From positions 1 through 38,607 of the forward strand of contig CAJQIB010000006.1 of NCBI GenBank assembly GCA_905478325.1: a stretch of DNA of 38,607 nucleotides, given 5' to 3'. A program made the translations under genes and the position numbers. Positions within the stretch are counted from its first letter, which is position 1; every line of letters begins with the position of its first letter. Under the pieces are notes generated by a model. It did no database searches, was not told the origin of the DNA, and saw only the letters and a list, made by a program, of their open reading frames with translations. The stretch is from an uncultured Flavobacteriales bacterium (GTDB lineage Bacteria; Bacteroidota; Bacteroidia; Flavobacteriales_D; Sanyastnellaceae). Below are positions 22,652 to 30,247 of the stretch, one piece after another.

Positions 22652-23458
22652 TCAATTGTTGGAGACCTCTCCTTTCATGGAGCCAATCTCCTGGCGCAAC
22701 GCATCCAGGGTTCCTTGAATCCGTTCCATTCCAGAAAATGCCGGTGTTGGCCAATCGAAAGCGAGATACGCTTGAGCGCGCCACACTTCTGCAATCTGAT
22801 CGGGTTGGACCGCATAGGGAGGATAATCTGGATTGTCCGAGATCATCCGGAAATCCTCGTGATCCGTATCCAATCGATTTTCAATGCGCTTGAAAACAAT
22901 CCCATCGTTTCGCGTGACCACGATATACGGTCGCATCCCCCCCGAATGATTCCAATCCGGTTCGAACGAAGCCAAAATGTAACTTCCGCTTGGGATGGGC
23001 AACATGCTGTCCCCTTCTATTTGAAACAAGCGATACGTTCGATACGGGGACACTTCGGGGATGGGCAAATCAAAGGTCGGAAGGGTTTGCACAAAGTCCG
23101 GATCGCTATAGCCCTCCAAATAACCCGCAGCTGCGCGAACAGGCACCACGGCCACATGCTCCTCGTTCGTTTCGTTGTTCACGGGAACGGTAAGCACTCG
23201 TAAGCGATGCCCGTTGGTTCGGTTTTCTTGAATTTCCTTGGCATTCACCCCGCGCATCATGGCATCAGTCGACACCCCTAACAAGTCGGCCATGGCCAGA
23301 ACATTTGCCAACCGCGGCTCAGATCGACCCTCCTCATAAGCGCCTAGGGCAGCGCGCTTAATCCCCATGCGGTCCGCCAACTCTTGTTGCGTCCAGCCCT
23401 TCGCTTTCCGCAAGGACTTGAGGTTCTTAGCAAACAAAGGAAGCGAGGTATTGGACAT
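22652..23458 (-). CDS. LexA-like HTH/S24 repressor, probable regulator of the mutagenesis operon
   Basis: From the ATG at 23458 the protein has 268 residues; the frame extends 25 codons upstream but that part runs through the operator and promoter. Residues about 8-62 form an XRE-type helix-turn-helix (GWTQQELADRMGIKRAALGAYEEG). The C-terminal half is a LexA/UmuD-like S24 domain with nucleophile Ser151 (IEGDSMLPI) and general base Lys190 (GIVFKRIE). Ala111-Gly112 in VRAAAGYLEGY sits where LexA-type proteins cut themselves. Thus it has all parts for damage-induced autocleavage. An inverted repeat TTGCTA-N7-TAGCAA covers its own -7 box. The same repeat precedes the polymerase operon, so I infer an SOS-type repressor. 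RecA dependence is not shown by sequence. Confidence 0.88.
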   Translation of the reverse strand: MSNTSLPLFAKNLKSLRKAKGWTQQELADRMGIKRAALGAYEEGRSEPRLANVLAMADLLGVSTDAMMRGVNAKEIQENRTNGHRLRVLTVPVNNETNEEHVAVVPVRAAAGYLEGYSDPDFVQTLPTFDLPIPEVSPYRTYRLFQIEGDSMLPIPSGSYILASFEPDWNHSGGMRPYIVVTRNDGIVFKRIENRLDTDHEDFRMISDNPDYPPYAVQPDQIAEVWRAQAYLAFDWPTPAFSGMERIQGTLDALRQEIGSMKGEVSNN

Positions 23459-23472
23459 ATTTTTGAACTGTT

Positions 23473-23491
23473 TTGCTATCAAATGTAGCAA
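23473..23491. promoter_or_regulatory. Predicted S24-repressor operator at the repressor/protease divergent promoters
   Basis: This perfect inverted repeat reads TTGCTA, 7 nt, TAGCAA on either strand. Read on the minus strand it shares 15 of 19 positions with the site before the Y-family polymerase. It starts 15 nt upstream of the repressor ATG and lies about 50 nt upstream of the protease ATG. Confidence 0.78.
23480..23487 (-). promoter_or_regulatory. -7 box of the S24 repressor gene, inside the operator
   Basis: The minus strand reads TACATTTG, a perfect TAnnTTTG. It overlaps the operator spacer and parts of both arms, 21 nt before the ATG. Repressor binding would directly block RNA polymerase, consistent with autorepression. 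Confidence 0.6.
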
Positions 23492-23513
23492 TGCAAACGA
23501 AAAGGTACCTAAA

Positions 23514-23521
23514 TAAATTTG
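23514..23521 (+). promoter_or_regulatory. -7 box of the secreted zinc-protease gene
   Basis: TAAATTTG matches TAnnTTTG and lies 21 nt before the ATG at 23543. The operator at 23473-23491 ends 22 nt upstream of it, roughly where the -33 region lies. Confidence 0.5.
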
Positions 23522-23542
23522 ATTTATCTTCATTGAGCCAAA

Positions 23543-24985
23543 ATGCCTTTGATGCCGCGCTCATTTCTCGCCTCATATGTTCTGTTTGTACTCGCTTCCG
23601 TTTGGGGGCACTCCCTGTTCGCACAGCGACACTTTGGGATTGAACACGCGTGCAGTCATCCGAGCGCGTGTGGAGATGGACTGGTGGCCCTTGAAGAGAA
23701 CGCATTCAGCTACACCCCTCCACCGGCATGGATCGATGAATTCACGGATCGAGACGCCTCGTTTCTCGTGACTTACAGCAACTTTCCAGCCGAAGCAGTA
23801 CTCGCTTTTGATGCCGCAGTTGACATCTGGTCGGCCTTTTTAACTTCTGATATCACCATACGCATTGACGCCTCGTGGGAAACGTTGACCGTAGGAACCT
23901 TAGCACAAGCTGGCCCAAACAACTTGCATGAAAATTTTCAAGGTGCCGCTTTTGCAGACACGTATTATGCGGCAGCTCTGGCCAATGCGCTCAACGGAAA
24001 TGACCTCAGCCCCCAGTCCGATATCGCGTGTTCGTTTAACAGCGCGGCCAACTGGTATTTCGGCCTAGACGGCCAAACCCCGGCTGGTCATTACGATTTC
24101 ATCACCGCCGCTTTGCATGAAATCGGGCATGGGATCGGATTCATTGGAAGCGCATACTTCACCAACGGATTCGGATTCTTAGGCACAGCCAACACACCGT
24201 ATGTGTATGATCACTTTACGGAAACCATCGACTCCATTGCCTTGTTGGATCTCAGTAATGGTTCCTCTGCACTGGGGAATGCCCTCACGTCCAACCAACT
24301 CTATTGGAACGGGAGCAATGGTGCTGAGGGCGTGGGTGGAGGACGGCCGCGTTTGCACGCCCCCTCCAATTACGAACCTGGATCGAGCTATTCCCACCTG
24401 AACGAAGCGACCTATCCGGCAGGAAGTCCCAATGCCTTGATGACACCTGCTTTGAACGCAGCCGAATCGAATCACAACCCGGGACCCGCCATCTTGGGCA
24501 TGTTCGAAGACATGGGGTGGGTCATTGGCGGTTGTCAGTGGACGGACATCGCCCTTGGTCCACAAACGTCATGCAATGAAGATCTAGGAACCTATAGCCA
24601 AGAAATTACACTCAGCTATCAAGCCGAACCGTCCACCGGTCTGATTCAAGTGAACGGAGCGCTCTACCTGACGACTGAAAGCCCGCAAACAATCAATCTC
24701 ACAGGGCTAGAAGCCAATGGACTGCCTGTAGACATCAGCGTTCACTTTACCGCTGAGGCCTCCTGTAGCGCGGTGTACGAGAACGCCTTTATTGCTCCCA
24801 TTTCATGCGGTTGCCTGACCGATCTGAGCGGGAACGGTCTCACCGAAATACAAGATGTGCTTCTTCTACTGGCTGACTTTGGTTGTTTAGAAGAGTGTTC
24901 GGGTGACGTTACAGGCGATGGAGCGAGCACAATCGAGGATATTTTAGCGATCCTTTCCGCTTTTGGACAACCCTGTATGCTATAA
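23543..24985 (+). CDS. Secreted metzincin-like zinc protease with C-terminal dockerin-like repeats
   Basis: The protein has 480 residues with a signal peptide (ASYVLFVLASVWGHSLFAQ). The catalytic motif is HEIGHGIGFIGS from His192, with Glu193 as general base and His196 as second ligand. A possible Met-turn is NALMTPALN. The third zinc ligand is unclear, since the usual HExxHxxGxxH ends in Ser here. The last 60 residues hold two EF-hand/dockerin-like calcium loops (DLSGNGLTEIQDVLLLLADFG and GDVTGDGASTIEDILAILSAFG, each family-typical), as seen in exported proteins of marine Bacteroidota. It lies between the repressor and the polymerase operon and starts divergently from the repressor. Co-regulation is possible but unproven. 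Confidence 0.82.
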   Translation: MPLMPRSFLASYVLFVLASVWGHSLFAQRHFGIEHACSHPSACGDGLVALEENAFSYTPPPAWIDEFTDRDASFLVTYSNFPAEAVLAFDAAVDIWSAFLTSDITIRIDASWETLTVGTLAQAGPNNLHENFQGAAFADTYYAAALANALNGNDLSPQSDIACSFNSAANWYFGLDGQTPAGHYDFITAALHEIGHGIGFIGSAYFTNGFGFLGTANTPYVYDHFTETIDSIALLDLSNGSSALGNALTSNQLYWNGSNGAEGVGGGRPRLHAPSNYEPGSSYSHLNEATYPAGSPNALMTPALNAAESNHNPGPAILGMFEDMGWVIGGCQWTDIALGPQTSCNEDLGTYSQEITLSYQAEPSTGLIQVNGALYLTTESPQTINLTGLEANGLPVDISVHFTAEASCSAVYENAFIAPISCGCLTDLSGNGLTEIQDVLLLLADFGCLEECSGDVTGDGASTIEDILAILSAFGQPCML

Positions 24986-24990
24986 ATTTT
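24961..24990 (+). promoter_or_regulatory. Candidate promoter of the polymerase operon
   Basis: TTTTG (24961-24965), 17 nt, then TAAATTTT (24983-24990), one base from TAnnTTTG. It overlaps the end of the protease gene and would start RNA near 24997, with the operator in the leader. This is a weak prediction. Confidence 0.3.
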
Positions 24991-25011
24991 AGCCTTTTTG
25001 CTATTTATCAT

Positions 25012-25038
25012 GGATTTGCTACGTATTTTAGCAAATCC
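25012..25038. promoter_or_regulatory. Predicted S24-repressor operator before the polymerase operon
   Basis: This is a perfect inverted repeat with 10-bp arms (GGATTTGCTA and TAGCAAATCC) and a 7-nt spacer, ending 2 nt before the ATG at 25041. Its core TTGCTA-N7-TAGCAA is the same as the site in the repressor promoter. A further TTGCTA half-site lies at 24998-25003, 18 bp upstream. It could also form an RNA hairpin over the translation start. Confidence 0.8.
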
Positions 25039-25040
25039 CG

Positions 25041-26273
25041 ATGAAAACAAATCCAACATCCCCTCAACGGGCTATTCTCCACCTTGATCTCGACACGTTT
25101 TTTGTGTCGGTCGAACGGCTCATGGACCGTCGCCTCAACGGCCAGCCCATTCTGATTGGCGGAACGGGCGATCGAGGTGTGGTTGCTGCCTGCAGCTATG
25201 AGACTCGAGCGTTTGGTGTCCACTCGGGAATGCCGATGCGGCAAGCCCGCTCCATGTGCCCCGAAGCGCTTGTGATTCGCGGGCACTCGAGCAACTACAT
25301 GAAGCACTCGGATTTGGTAACCGAAATTGTACGCGAAGCCGTCCCTGTTTGCGAGAAAACTTCCATCGATGAGTTTTATGCCGACCTCAGCGGCATGGAT
25401 CGGTTTTATGGCTGCTGGGATTTCTCACGTGAATTGCGGCAGAAAGTGATTCGCGAGACCGGGTTGCCCATTTCATTCGGCCTTAGCACGAGTAAAACGG
25501 TGAGTAAGGTCGCTACAGGGGAAGCCAAGCCCTCCGGGAACATCCGGGTCGATAGCGGCACCGAACGCCCCTTTCTCGGACCTCTTTCCATTCGGAAAAT
25601 TCCCCAGGTGGGAACCAAAACCTACCAAACGTTACGGAATCTAGGCGTTCGTCGCATCCATACCATCCAAGAGATGCCCGTGGAATTGATGGAGCAGGTC
25701 TTGGGTCAAAACGGCAGTGCCATTTGGCGAAAGTCCCATGGGATCGATACCAGTCCTGTGGTGGCTTTCAACGAGCGCAAGTCCATTTCTACAGAACGGA
25801 CCTTTGCCAAAGACACCACGGACATCGAAAAGCTTCGCGGGATTTTGATTGCCATGGCGGAAAATCTCGCCTACCAATTGCGGCGCGGCAACAAGCTCAC
25901 TGCTTGCATCTCGGTGAAAATTCGGTACGCCGATTTCGACACCCGCTCACTGCAATCCCGTATTGCGTATACCGCATCCGACCACATCCTGTTGCCCAAA
26001 ATCAAGGCGCTCTTCGAGCAGCTGTACGATCGCAGGGTGCAGGTTCGACTCATTGGCGTCCGATATACCAACCTCCTCGAAGGAGCCTGTCAAATGGATC
26101 TCTTCGAAGACACGGATGAGCGCTTGCACCTCTACCGCGCTTTAGACCGCATTCGCAACCAATATGGCGACCGCAGCATTGTCGCTGCCGCGGGCCTTGA
26201 AGCGCGTACCATCGGCCGTCCCAATCCTTTTAATGGAGAAGCGCCCTTGCTTCTTGCCAACCGTCATCAGTAA
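25041..26273 (+). CDS. Y-family DNA polymerase (DinB/Pol IV-like), damage-tolerance
   Basis: This translesion polymerase has 410 residues. The palm carboxylates are intact: Asp16 in LHLDLDTFF and Asp110-Glu111 in SIDEFYADLSG. The steric-gate position is Phe21, matching Phe13 of E. coli Pol IV. The finger region ACSYETRAFGVHSGMPMRQA is typical, and HhH and little-finger domains follow. A canonical beta-clamp-binding motif, QMDLF, lies at residues 351-355. Because the active site is intact, this is not an ImuB-type non-catalytic protein. It is the first gene of a three-gene operon, with 12 nt to the next gene and the predicted operator directly upstream. I assign the family firmly, but Pol IV versus Pol V subtype is uncertain. 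Confidence 0.93.
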   Translation: MKTNPTSPQRAILHLDLDTFFVSVERLMDRRLNGQPILIGGTGDRGVVAACSYETRAFGVHSGMPMRQARSMCPEALVIRGHSSNYMKHSDLVTEIVREAVPVCEKTSIDEFYADLSGMDRFYGCWDFSRELRQKVIRETGLPISFGLSTSKTVSKVATGEAKPSGNIRVDSGTERPFLGPLSIRKIPQVGTKTYQTLRNLGVRRIHTIQEMPVELMEQVLGQNGSAIWRKSHGIDTSPVVAFNERKSISTERTFAKDTTDIEKLRGILIAMAENLAYQLRRGNKLTACISVKIRYADFDTRSLQSRIAYTASDHILLPKIKALFEQLYDRRVQVRLIGVRYTNLLEGACQMDLFEDTDERLHLYRALDRIRNQYGDRSIVAAAGLEARTIGRPNPFNGEAPLLLANRHQ

Positions 26274-26285
26274 ATTCATCGCATC

Positions 26286-27116
26286 ATGTGTGGTCGCTAC
26301 GTCACCGTCTCTTCTGTTCAAGCCATCGAAAAACGCTTCAACGTGCAATCGACTCCCGAAGTCACCGCAGCTTGGCGTCCCAATGCCAACGTTTCTCACG
26401 GAGAACAGGCTCCTGTCATTGCCAGCGATGCTCCTCAAACACTTCAAATGCAGCAGTTCGGCTTTACACCGCGCTGGGCCAAGAAGCAGTTTTATATGAT
26501 CAATGCCCGATCCGAAGGAGACCACAACAAAGAGGACGATCCGCGCTACACGGGTGCCATGGGCATCATTCAAAAACCCATGTTTCGCCAATCCATCCGC
26601 GACCGGAGGTGCCTGATTCTCGCCGATGCTGTGATTGAAGGTCCCAAGCAGCAAAAACTCACCAAGCCCTACCTCGTCTATCCACGCAATGGTGTCAGAC
26701 CGTTTGCCATGGCGGGGATTTGGGACGAATGGGCAGATCCCAAAACCGGAGAAATCATTCGGTCGTTTGCCATCCTCACCACGGTGGCCAACACCCTCCT
26801 GCAAACCATCGGGCACCACCGCTCACCGGTGTTACTGCCAGAAGAAAACGAGCACGCTTGGCTCGACCTATCCACGCCCCTCGCAGACATTACGGCCATG
26901 CTCGGGCCATTTCCCAGTAATGCGTTCAACGCTTACCCCATTTCACCCGAAATCCGAGACCCCCGGGTCAACGGTTCCGATTTGCTGCAGCCCATTGGCC
27001 AACGCATTCACGTTGAACACGAATTCATGCTCCACCAGGAGCTCGAGCTGTTTGGCATGGGAGAGTCACGCGCGCGCAATCGCCGTTCTGGGGAACAAGG
27101 AGCGCTGTTCTCCTAA
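26286..27116 (+). CDS. SRAP (HMCES/YedK) family abasic-site DNA-protein crosslink protein
   Basis: SRAP proteins form a covalent thiazolidine link with abasic sites in single-stranded DNA and so shield them from cleavage and error-prone bypass. The protein has 276 residues. Catalytic Cys2 is present in MCGRY, which becomes N-terminal after Met removal. Asn73 in INARSEG, Glu118 in ADAVIEGPKQQ and His177 in GHHRSPVLL align with the YedK residues Asn75, Glu105 and His160. The gene lies 12 nt after the Y-family polymerase gene and 11 nt before the DnaE2-like gene, so the three are one operon. Placement of a base-loss shield between two bypass polymerases suggests a shared pathway. Confidence 0.93.
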   Translation: MCGRYVTVSSVQAIEKRFNVQSTPEVTAAWRPNANVSHGEQAPVIASDAPQTLQMQQFGFTPRWAKKQFYMINARSEGDHNKEDDPRYTGAMGIIQKPMFRQSIRDRRCLILADAVIEGPKQQKLTKPYLVYPRNGVRPFAMAGIWDEWADPKTGEIIRSFAILTTVANTLLQTIGHHRSPVLLPEENEHAWLDLSTPLADITAMLGPFPSNAFNAYPISPEIRDPRVNGSDLLQPIGQRIHVEHEFMLHQELELFGMGESRARNRRSGEQGALFS

Positions 27117-27127
27117 CCCGCAAATCG

Positions 27128-30100
27128 ATGCACTTGCACTGCCACTCGTGGTTTAGTCTACGCCATGGACTCATGCGGCCCGAAGAGCTCCTTGCCGAAG
27201 CGCAAGCGGTTGGGGTCACGGAACTGGCGTTGACCGACATCAACAACACTTCGGCCAACTGGGATTTTGTCCGACTGGCCCCGCGTTATGGAATTCGGCC
27301 CGTTTTGGGTACGGATTTTCGAAACAACGGGCACATGCAGTACATCGCTTTGGCTCACAACGTCGCCGGTTATCACGAACTCTGCGCGCACCTCTCACAG
27401 CACCTCCACTCGGGCACCCCCTTTCCTGACCGCGCCCCCGATTTTGCCCATGCCTCCGTGATCTATCCGTGGAGTACGACCAAGCACCTCGATTTACTGC
27501 CCCTGCGCGAACATGAATGGATTGGTGTGCGCCCATGGGAACAAGCTGAATTCCGAATCCTAGAAGGCAATCCCGCACGGCGATCACGCATTCCGTGGGA
27601 TAAATTGCTTGCGCTGCAAACGTTTACGTTTCGTCACAAGCGGGATTGGAATTGCCACCGTCTCTTGCGGGCAATTGACCACAACACCTTACTCAGTAAG
27701 CTTTCCATCGATGCCACCGGCCATGCCTATGACCGGTTGTTGGACGCAGCCAATCTTCACCAGGCATTCGCAGAACGCCCCGAGTGGATTCAGCGGTCCA
27801 AAGCGCTTCTGAGTCAATGCACCATCGCATTGCCTGAACCGGAAGCTGGGCGGATGCACAACAACCAGCACACCTATACCGAAAGCGAAGAGGGGGATGA
27901 ATCTCTGATCCGTAGCCTGTGTGCTGAAGGGCTTGCTTACCGGTATCCCGATCATGAGGAGGCCGTTTTGGAACGGATGGAGAATGAGCTTCATATCATT
28001 CAAAAGCAAGGCTATCTCGCCTATTTCTTGATCAATTGGGACATCACCAGTTATGCCAGAAGTAAGGGGTATTTCTATGTCGGCCGAGGAAGTGGAGCCA
28101 ACAGCTTGGTGGCCTATCTCCTGCGCATCACCGATGTGGACCCCATCGAATTGGATCTGTACTTCGAACGGTTCATCAACCTCTACCGGACGAATCCCCC
28201 CGACTTTGACATTGATTTCTCCTGGACCGACCGGGATGACGTTACCCGGTACATTTTCGAGCGCTTTGACCACGTCGCCCTCGTCGGCGCATACAGCACC
28301 TTTCAACACCGCGCCATCGTCCGAGAATTGGGCAAGGTCTTCGGCCTTCCAAAGCATGAAATCGACGCCCTTGCCGACGGGAAATTCAACCCCAATCAAC
28401 TCAGCGAGATGGCCCAATATGTCGTGCGTTATTCCGGCCACCTCCGGGAGTTTCCCAACGCACTGACGGTCCATTCGTGTGGCATTCTGATTGCTGAACA
28501 TCCCATCCATCACTACGGCGGCACATTCATGCCCCCCAAGGGGTTCCCGACCACCCAATTCGATATGGTCGTGGCGGAAGACGTGGGGCTTTTCAAGTTT
28601 GATATTCTGAGTCAGCGGGGACTCGGAAAGATCCGGGACACCTTGGACCTCATCGCTGTCCACTCGCCGGCCGTTGTCGCGTCCCTCGACATCCACGACA
28701 TGCAGCGGTTCAAAGCCGACCCCAAAATTCAACACTTGCTGCGCGAAGCGCTGGCCGTCGGCTGTTTTTATGTCGAATCGCCCGCCATGCGGATGCTCAT
28801 GCGCAAGTTACAAGTCGATACCTATCTGGGATTGGTTGCCGCCAGTTCCGTCATCCGACCTGGTGTTTCCAAAAGTGGCATGATGCGCACCTACATCGAA
28901 CGGCACCGGGATCCCAAACGGCGAAAAGAAGCCCACCCCGTCCTTCTGAAGTTGATGCCGGAAACCTATGGTGTGATGGTCTATCAAGAAGACGTGATCA
29001 AGGTGGCCCACCACTTCGCTGGGCTCGATCTCGGGGAAGCCGATGTCTTGCGACGCGGTATGAGCGGGAAGTTTCGATCGCGGGACGAGTTTGCAAAAGC
29101 CCGAGACACCTTCATTGAAAAGGCTGTGGAACGCGGCCGGCCGACTTCCTTGGTTCATGAAGTCTGGGACCAAGTGGAAAGCTTTGCCGGGTACGCCTTT
29201 GCCAAAGGCCATTCGGCTTCTTACGCCGTTGAGAGCTATCAAAGTCTCTTCCTCAAGGCCCACTGGCCCCTGGAGTACATGACGGCTTGCATCAACAATT
29301 TCGGGGGGTTCTATCGCACCGAGTTTTATGTGCATGAAGCGCGTATGGTCGGCGCCCGCATGGAGGAGCCGTGCATCAACCGAGGCCACTGGGAAGCCAC
29401 CGTTTACGCCTCTGAACTCCGAATCTTTCTGGGCTTCAACCTCGTGCGCGGGGTCGAGGCGCAAACGGTCGAGGCGGTGATGCGAAATCGTGCGCAATGT
29501 GGTCCGTTCGCTTCACTGGAAGACGCCATTGAACGGCTTGGGTTGGGATTGGAGCAATGCTTGCTTCTGATCCGTTGTGGCGGATTTCGGTTTACGGACT
29601 TGAGCAAACAGCAACTGCTGTGGGAGGCCCATTTTTTGCTTGGGCACCGATCACGCTCCGCCCCCGAAATCACGCTGTTCGCTCCCGAAGCACGACGCTT
29701 CACACTGCCCGCTTTGGAATCGGGGATACTCGAAGATGCCTTCGATCAAATCGAGTTGTTTGGCTTTCCCTTGGTTTCGCCCTTTCTACTGCTCACTGAA
29801 GAGGCGCAAGCAGTGGCGCAACGCAGTGTGAGAAGCGACGCGTTATCTGATTGCATTGGACAAACGGTAGAAGTCGTCGGGTACCTCGTTACGGTCAAGG
29901 AAACAGCCACATCGAAAGGAGACCGGATGTGTTTTGGGTGCTTTGTCGACCGAGAAGGTGCTTGGCTCGACACGGTGCACTTTCCTCCCTCACTGCGCAC
30001 CTATGGGTTTCGAGGCAAAGGCATCTATCGGATTCGCGGTCCCGTACGTGAGGAGTACGGTTGCTACCACGTCGAGGCGTTGTGGATGGAAAAGCTCGCT

Positions 30101-30247
30101 TACATCCCCGATCCACGCTACGCCGAGGGTGGATTGCCCGGTCGTGACGCACGACCTACCAATGCCTCTTCAAAGCGTCGTCCCACCATGCGAGCCAATA
30201 GCAGTGGCGGCCAACTCAAACGGCAAATGCAGTCCAAATCTCGCTAG
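27128..30247 (+). CDS. DnaE2-like error-prone C-family DNA polymerase
   Basis: The protein has 1039 residues, shorter than replicative DnaE (about 1160) and typical of DnaE2. The PHP domain starts immediately at MHLHCHSWFSLRHG. The palm carboxylates are intact: Asp361 and Asp363 in PPDFDIDFSW, and Asp492 in LFKFDILSQRGLG. GRGSGANSLVAYLL and SYAVESYQSLFLKAHWPLEYM are family-typical. A helix-hairpin-helix region and a C-terminal OB-fold (TVEVVGYLVTVKETATSKGD) follow. QIELF at residues 874-878 resembles a beta-clamp-binding motif. DnaE2 proteins extend past lesions inserted by a Y-family partner. Here the partner is encoded two genes upstream. The gene is convergent with the TonB receptor gene, 21 nt apart. 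Confidence 0.92.
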   Translation: MHLHCHSWFSLRHGLMRPEELLAEAQAVGVTELALTDINNTSANWDFVRLAPRYGIRPVLGTDFRNNGHMQYIALAHNVAGYHELCAHLSQHLHSGTPFPDRAPDFAHASVIYPWSTTKHLDLLPLREHEWIGVRPWEQAEFRILEGNPARRSRIPWDKLLALQTFTFRHKRDWNCHRLLRAIDHNTLLSKLSIDATGHAYDRLLDAANLHQAFAERPEWIQRSKALLSQCTIALPEPEAGRMHNNQHTYTESEEGDESLIRSLCAEGLAYRYPDHEEAVLERMENELHIIQKQGYLAYFLINWDITSYARSKGYFYVGRGSGANSLVAYLLRITDVDPIELDLYFERFINLYRTNPPDFDIDFSWTDRDDVTRYIFERFDHVALVGAYSTFQHRAIVRELGKVFGLPKHEIDALADGKFNPNQLSEMAQYVVRYSGHLREFPNALTVHSCGILIAEHPIHHYGGTFMPPKGFPTTQFDMVVAEDVGLFKFDILSQRGLGKIRDTLDLIAVHSPAVVASLDIHDMQRFKADPKIQHLLREALAVGCFYVESPAMRMLMRKLQVDTYLGLVAASSVIRPGVSKSGMMRTYIERHRDPKRRKEAHPVLLKLMPETYGVMVYQEDVIKVAHHFAGLDLGEADVLRRGMSGKFRSRDEFAKARDTFIEKAVERGRPTSLVHEVWDQVESFAGYAFAKGHSASYAVESYQSLFLKAHWPLEYMTACINNFGGFYRTEFYVHEARMVGARMEEPCINRGHWEATVYASELRIFLGFNLVRGVEAQTVEAVMRNRAQCGPFASLEDAIERLGLGLEQCLLLIRCGGFRFTDLSKQQLLWEAHFLLGHRSRSAPEITLFAPEARRFTLPALESGILEDAFDQIELFGFPLVSPFLLLTEEAQAVAQRSVRSDALSDCIGQTVEVVGYLVTVKETATSKGDRMCFGCFVDREGAWLDTVHFPPSLRTYGFRGKGIYRIRGPVREEYGCYHVEALWMEKLAYIPDPRYAEGGLPGRDARPTNASSKRRPTMRANSSGGQLKRQMQSKSR

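Follow-up and report, generated by a model that had tools for sequence, protein, structure and literature searches.

In Escherichia coli, LexA acts through the SOS box CTGT-N8-ACAG before many operons. The locus described here follows the same logic, that of a cleavable S24 autorepressor over translesion polymerases, but has an unrelated DNA-binding domain and box and is confined to one locus. The "non-canonical LexA" family of Bacteroidetes (Sanchez-Osuna et al. 2021, PMC8565304) provides the closest comparison. As far as the accessible text of that paper goes, the family regulators, their CTAA-N5-TTAG box, autoregulation, and the position of the repressor next to an error-prone polymerase have all been described, and gel shifts with mutated sites were used for binding of family members to CTAA-N5-TTAG. 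The same text reports diverged boxes and, in some clades, small regulons. For example, the box of Elizabethkingia anophelis is TTAC-AAATT-GTAA, and the genes for the regulator and the adjoining error-prone polymerase respond to mitomycin C. Related polymerase modules are also on record in the accessible portions of three further papers: in Bacteroidetes, an apparently active Y-family polymerase paired with DnaE2 (PMC6511836), a DnaE2B–PolY–RecA module that includes a RecA-NT motif in PolY (PMC12926913), and operons that join SRAP to DinB, some of which also have a DnaE paralogue (PMC3765255). No description of a TTGCTA-N7-TAGCAA operator was found in the openly accessible literature.

The window, meaning the whole stretch of 38,607 nucleotides analyzed here, comes from an uncultured marine Flavobacteriales bacterium. 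Arrays of a 54-bp tandem repeat, with up to 7.2 copies and open frames on both strands, occupy positions 1-1033 and 1505-1649. The dyad TTGCTA-N7-TAGCAA occurs twice, neither site being assigned to a strand. Operator 1 (23473-23491) lies 15 bp from the ATG of a repressor gene and 51 bp from that of a metalloprotease gene, and operator 2 (25016-25034) lies 6 bp 5' of a polymerase ATG. The original prediction had reported these two full sites, 15 of 19 shared positions when each is read in gene direction, and 10-bp arms at the second; all were recovered on recomputation, including the flanks that extend operator 2 into perfect arms at 25012-25038. None of 100 dinucleotide shuffles of the window contained an exact site, and across the whole own assembly (2,375,099 bases, 59 contigs, 98.9% complete) the same two sites were the only ones, with none for the reversed control pattern. 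With up to two mismatches allowed, the window has 3 such dyads (mean of 0.99 in shuffles) and the genome has 67, compared with 139 matches to the reversed control pattern, so weak sites are not above background genome-wide. A weaker second dyad, GCTATAAATTTTAGC, lies at 24979-24993 (no strand assigned), 5' of both the polymerase gene and operator 2, and is kept in the close relatives G008, G018, and G020. The polymerase start codon is at 25041 and that of the repressor at 23458. A further in-frame ATG upstream of the repressor, at 23533, would put operator 1 inside the frame, and is less favored because the alignment of homologues supports 23458.

The repressor gene (22652-23458, minus strand) encodes a protein of 268 aa with an N-terminal HTH_3 domain (PF01381, 61.9 bits; cut-off 23) and a C-terminal S24 peptidase domain (PF00717, 28.6 bits; cut-off 23.3). 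Every aligned homologue, 17 of 17 in one set and 38 of 38 in another, has the A111-G112 pair, S151, and K190. A genome search returned a single S24 protein, the window repressor, and in the same genome no LexA winged helix (PF01726) scored above the cut-off (best E 0.73). With no such domain, and with a dyad that is not CTGT-N8-ACAG, canonical LexA was rejected. The original prediction set the operator only against the E. coli and Gram-positive LexA boxes and overlooked the known Bacteroidetes family with its CTAA-N5-TTAG box. In an AlphaFold2 model (pLDDT 81, pTM 0.57), the N-terminal domain is helical, the C-terminal domain is rich in beta structure, and a terminal helix occupies 244-266. 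The best Foldseek matches to this model in the PDB were a lambda-186 hybrid repressor, lambda repressor, and LexA, a likeness that holds domain by domain only because the whole-chain rmsd is 12-18 Å in the top nine. By sequence, the N-terminal domain is akin to XRE- and phage-type domains, including that of P22 C2. Distant relatives of the repressor are present on 25 viral contigs (L282-L306), the best at 36% identity over most of the length. At the recognition helix, the repressor of G023 (L151:8703-9461) has GLTRPTLGAYEEG, compared with GIKRAALGAYEEG in the window; close relatives of the G023 repressor, at loci L207 and L208, are accompanied by TTGCTC-type boxes. This difference possibly reflects a change in specificity, in one lineage only.

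We assign the window repressor to the published non-canonical LexA family. According to the accessible text of PMC8565304, its CTAA-N5-TTAG group has in common with our protein the pairing of HTH_3 with S24 and the Ala-Gly/Ser/Lys residues, and, going by the predicted model, a CI-like N-terminal domain, a LexA/CI-like C-terminal fold, and an extra terminal helix. It likewise has the operator before its own gene and the error-prone polymerase, with the CTA-N7-TAG core in register. The validated regulators of the family are those of Pontibacter actiniarum and of the Salegentibacter type; over nearly the full length, the window repressor shares 38-39% identity with proteins from three other Pontibacter species. 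The region surveyed for boxes comprised 200 bp of upstream sequence plus the first 15 bases, in the best 80 of 547 relatives; six of these belong to the window's genus. CTA-N7-TAG was present in 44 of these 80 homologous loci (4.5 in shuffles; 5/80 for the reversed control) and was not found upstream in 36. CTAA-N5-TTAG was present in 37 of the same 80, in the same register (0.3 in shuffles; 0/80 for the reversed control), including all 3 Pontibacter and all 6 Hymenobacter loci; GGA-N5-TCC was present in one (2.0 in shuffles). Strict CTAA-N5-TTAG is absent from operators 1 and 2, where the CTA-N7-TAG core alone is kept, in register. Since the exact box is absent, we file the window as a variant of the family and not as a member of the standard CTAA-N5-TTAG subgroup. 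In relatives, CTAA sites are mostly preceded by WTR and followed by YAW; therefore, the TTG and CAA arms of the window represent one form of a wider extended box. Judged by its letters, the window box has diverged from CTAA-N5-TTAG in that the inner A/T pair is not kept. It differs from that group in not requiring this pair, and the outer TTG/CAA is nearly fixed in operator 1 of the genus (17/18). With Elizabethkingia anophelis, it has in common a diverged box, autoregulation, and a regulator near an error-prone polymerase gene, going by the accessible part of the same paper. The box itself is another one, however, and in the window repressor and polymerase are separated by a metalloprotease gene, with SRAP and DnaE genes following.

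The surrounding lineages hold related forms of the box. In a 74-row repressor tree, in which some deep joins on long branches are unsure, the TTGCTA-form repressors make up one clade (100/98) nested in the clade of their family. In G029, a near relative in this tree, the shared promoter has TTGCTAAAATTTTTAGCTT, an exact CTAA-N5-TTAG. Loci L207 and L208 have TTGCTC-N7-GAGCAA 5' of the repressor, and G033 has TTGCCA-N7-TGGCAA 5' of the polymerase. The family member G031 carries a perfect TTGCTA-N7-TAGCAA that contains CTAA-N5-TTAG, 5' of the polymerase gene and approximately 120 kb from the repressor gene, which points to action in trans; it also means that the 12 fixed letters as such are found outside the genus as well. 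Among 11 family members outside the genus that have a repressor homologue, at most three (G022, G023, and G029) have a related dyad before the repressor, as judged by eye and with some start codons unsure. The exact motif itself occurs in 8 of 38 genomes outside the genus. Five of the eight places fall within open frames of more than 150 codons and are taken as chance matches; the polymerase promoter of G031 is one of the other three.

Within the genus, both operators are conserved. The original prediction had named conservation before orthologous genes as a check, and it withstood that check. Upstream of the repressor, the dyad was found in all 18 readable members (exact in 17, with one mismatch in G012), starting 28-33 bp before the start codon. 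Upstream of the polymerase, it was found in all 17 readable members, beginning at -25 or -26, with no mismatch in 4 genomes, one in 9, and two in 4; TTGCTCATTATTTTAGCAA is the commonest form. By eye, the dyad and its near surroundings are the best-kept parts of both upstream alignments and the flanks vary; a TTGC element 14 bp 5' of operator 2 is likewise well kept. The gene order Nfu–repressor–metalloprotease–polymerase–SRAP–DnaE holds across the genus as far as contigs extend, with only a piece of the metalloprotease in G012. The exact motif is present in 18 of 22 genus genomes, our own included, and the repressor in those same 18, a co-occurrence that is no independent evidence because the motif sits in the repressor's own locus. 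Motif and repressor are both missing from G003, G004, G005, and G021, which are 64-87% complete. Since the flanking Nfu gene likewise has no good match in these four, loss of the whole module was rejected as evidence; the locus may simply be unassembled there.

Exact and up-to-two-mismatch scans of the genome of origin gave no excess over the reversed control, and a wider regulon was rejected. Four one-mismatch sites were found in that genome, three in long open frames and one between the 3' ends of convergent frames, and so they are not promoter-like. Among the two-mismatch matches listed, none lies on C18, the contig with recA, because the contigs among the matches listed go from C12 to C19. 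A looser genus-wide pattern gave 16 further places, each identical in no more than two genomes and one of them inside the DnaE frame of G010. Of the 20 genus genomes in which recA is complete, 1 has CTA-N7-TAG in the 250 bp preceding that gene (in two of the 20, the start is probably called too early); of 16 readable relatives (18 tried), none has it within 300 bp. On these counts, recA was rejected as a member of the regulon. The exact regulon is apparently one locus with two operators, without recA, and in both respects it differs from the CTAA-N5-TTAG group.

The genes downstream of operator 2 form a compact set on the plus strand. A DinB-like Y-family polymerase (25041-26273; 410 aa; PF00817, 141.2 bits) is followed after 12 bp by a SRAP protein that starts MCGR (26286-27116; PF02586, 153.5 bits) and, after another 11 bp, by an accessory DnaE-type polymerase (27128-30247; 1039 aa; PF07733, PF17657, PF02811). 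The Y-family polymerase has the motifs DLD and SIDE, a clamp-type QMDLF, and a RecA-NT-like C-terminal stretch; its tail LYRALDRIRNQYGDRSIV matches the N-terminus of the organism's own RecA, LQLTLDRMDKTYGKGAVM, at 6 of 18 positions by eye, as would be expected of a RecA-NT motif. The functions ascribed to these motifs are presumptive and draw in part on the accessible portion of PMC12926913. This is the one Y-family gene (PF00817) found in the genome, a search of which gave no second, such as ImuB. The window DnaE scores 467.9 bits with TIGR00594 and 436.8 bits with the error-prone model PRK05672, below the cut-off of 939, and is probably DnaE2. We take it as the accessory copy because a second DnaE, on contig C47, is longer (open frame of 1443 aa) and better scoring (306.6 vs 202.4 bits). 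The operon resembles, in its predicted products, the described Bacteroidetes PolY–DnaE2 module. In the accessible portions of PMC6511836 and PMC12926913, the PolY2–DnaE2 and DnaE2B–PolY–RecA modules likewise combine an apparently active PolY with an accessory DnaE, no second Y-family gene, and a RecA-NT motif, of which the window tail is a candidate, but here a SRAP gene sits in between. The SRAP–DinB operons, as far as PMC3765255 is accessible, similarly have SRAP as a neighbor of DinB and DnaE, with a repressor of LexA-like type close by; the repressor here, however, is of the Bacteroidota type.

In the accessible text of PMC9723704, the -7 box consensus of Flavobacterium psychrophilum is TAnnTTTG. 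A match to this flavobacterial box, TACATTTG, lies inside operator 1 on the minus strand (23480-23487), and the box is found within operator 1 in 18 of 18 genus genomes. Inside operator 2, TATTTTAG (25024-25031) matches with one mismatch and is present in 17 of 17. Because the operators contain these matches, a bound repressor would cover the promoter. The two dyads are, with high probability, operators of the adjacent S24 repressor, a damage-released member of the non-canonical LexA family that would silence itself and the polymerase–SRAP–DnaE operon. A repressor dimer on operator 1, over the -7 box, would bring about autorepression and perhaps also hold down the divergent metalloprotease gene, and a dimer on operator 2 would cover the -7 near-match and keep the operon silent. 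DNA damage would give rise to RecA filaments, which would promote self-cleavage of the repressor between A111 and G112. Both promoters would then be freed and a set of mutagenic polymerases, itself perhaps able to bind RecA, would be produced. The analysis established the sites, their conservation, the cleavage residues, the gene order, the overlap with promoter-box matches, and the confinement of exact sites to one locus; for the window repressor and operon, we infer binding, promoter use, cleavage, induction, and mutagenesis.

A broader reading would also draw in the gene between the two operators, a putative secreted zinc metalloprotease with a HEIGH motif (23543-24985, plus strand), divergent from the repressor, which the original prediction left unmentioned although it shares operator 1. 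Its signal-peptide-like start and dockerin-like tail were recognized by eye; the models NF038122 (71.1 bits; cut-off 80) and GC-type dockerin (21.2 bits; cut-off 29) both scored below cut-off, matrixin was matched at E 0.2 only, and a PDB search gave no match. In 16 of 18 genus loci, the metalloprotease ATG lies 70-84 bp beyond the start of operator 1, the remaining two being G012, with a C-terminal piece of the gene only, and G019, with a run of N. The TTGCTC dyad of L207 and L208 also precedes a metalloprotease gene, and this gene has remained a neighbor of the repressor in the genus as well as in several family members, including cases in which the relative strand differs. However, no matching dyad lies 5' of the metalloprotease in five loci where it is on the repressor's strand, and several divergent loci outside the genus have none, which rules the gene out as a general member of the regulon. 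The pattern suggests shared regulation of repressor and metalloprotease, limited to the genus and to L207 and L208. A metalloprotease–LexA link was not found in the openly accessible literature. We consider it rather unlikely that a one-locus SOS response exists in the full form, in which the cleaved repressor would free itself and the secreted metalloprotease from operator 1 and the polymerase set, its start codon also locked in a hairpin, from operator 2, with recA outside. If true, this arrangement would couple DNA damage to an extracellular activity.

In the read-through mRNA, positions 25004-25045 of the window form a long hairpin that takes in the polymerase start codon, with mixed support in relatives; Rfam gave no match in the window. 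That the second dyad is mainly this RNA hairpin, burying the polymerase start codon in mRNA read through from the metalloprotease gene, is a reading to which we give little credence. The segment 24986-25060 folds at -18.9 kcal/mol (z -5.3), which places the AUG in the stem. Averaged over 17 genus members, the probability of an unpaired AUG is 0.12, compared with 0.34 when the upstream flank is shuffled, and it falls below the shuffled mean in 15 of 17, but the per-genome ranks spread from 0.00 to 0.82. The share of paired alignment cells was reached by just 17 and 29 of 500 shuffles in the two registers, but the covariation score was reached by 119 and 434 of 500. Moreover, the consensus fold retains the dyad alone, with 8 pairs; the loop part TATTTTAG is invariant; and before the repressor, where the same dyad occurs, the RNA fold is unremarkable (z 0.36). 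We treat the start-codon hairpin and the metalloprotease link as leads only.

HTH_3 regulators are numerous in bacteria, and another of them could in principle bind the dyads in place of the neighboring S24 protein. Against this, the operators are common to both ends of the locus, a related motif precedes 37 of the 80 homologous repressor genes examined (the best 80 of 547), and, in the accessible text of PMC8565304, family members bind CTAA-N5-TTAG; a different regulator is therefore very improbable. An ordinary prophage-type repressor without a role in DNA damage, which the likeness of the N-terminal domain to the phage repressors P22 C2 and lambda and the distant relatives on 25 viral contigs (best 36% identity) might suggest, is hardly credible, given that the order Nfu–repressor–(metalloprotease)–PolY–SRAP–DnaE is kept over the genus, that the neighbors identified by domain are not phage genes, and that the targets are repair-type polymerases. 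Chance palindromes, for which only the total of two sites speaks, have a negligible probability in view of the empty window shuffles and are refuted by conservation at 18/18 and 17/17 readable orthologous places.

The reading that we prefer, with the dyads as operators of the adjacent S24 repressor, describes a system that is real, conserved, and functional-looking, and that is a variant, particular to its lineage, of a repressor family already published, not a new kind. Of the SOS-like operator first proposed, the functional part gained from conservation, the cleavage residues, and the confinement of exact sites to one locus, but the claim to novelty did not hold, as a related family and box are published (PMC8565304, in its accessible part). 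What seems new here is the diverged operator, a regulon that seemingly leaves out recA and is limited to one locus, and the sharing of operator 1 with a metalloprotease gene. The finding supplies a further step in how SOS boxes evolve: in one family of uncultured Flavobacteriales, the box shifts symmetrically from CTAA-N5-TTAG to TTGCTA and TTGCTC with N7, and perhaps to TTGCCA, while the protein family, its place, and its target stay constant. With apparently one locus and two operators, and without recA, it also provides a small case for asking what the core of the SOS response is.
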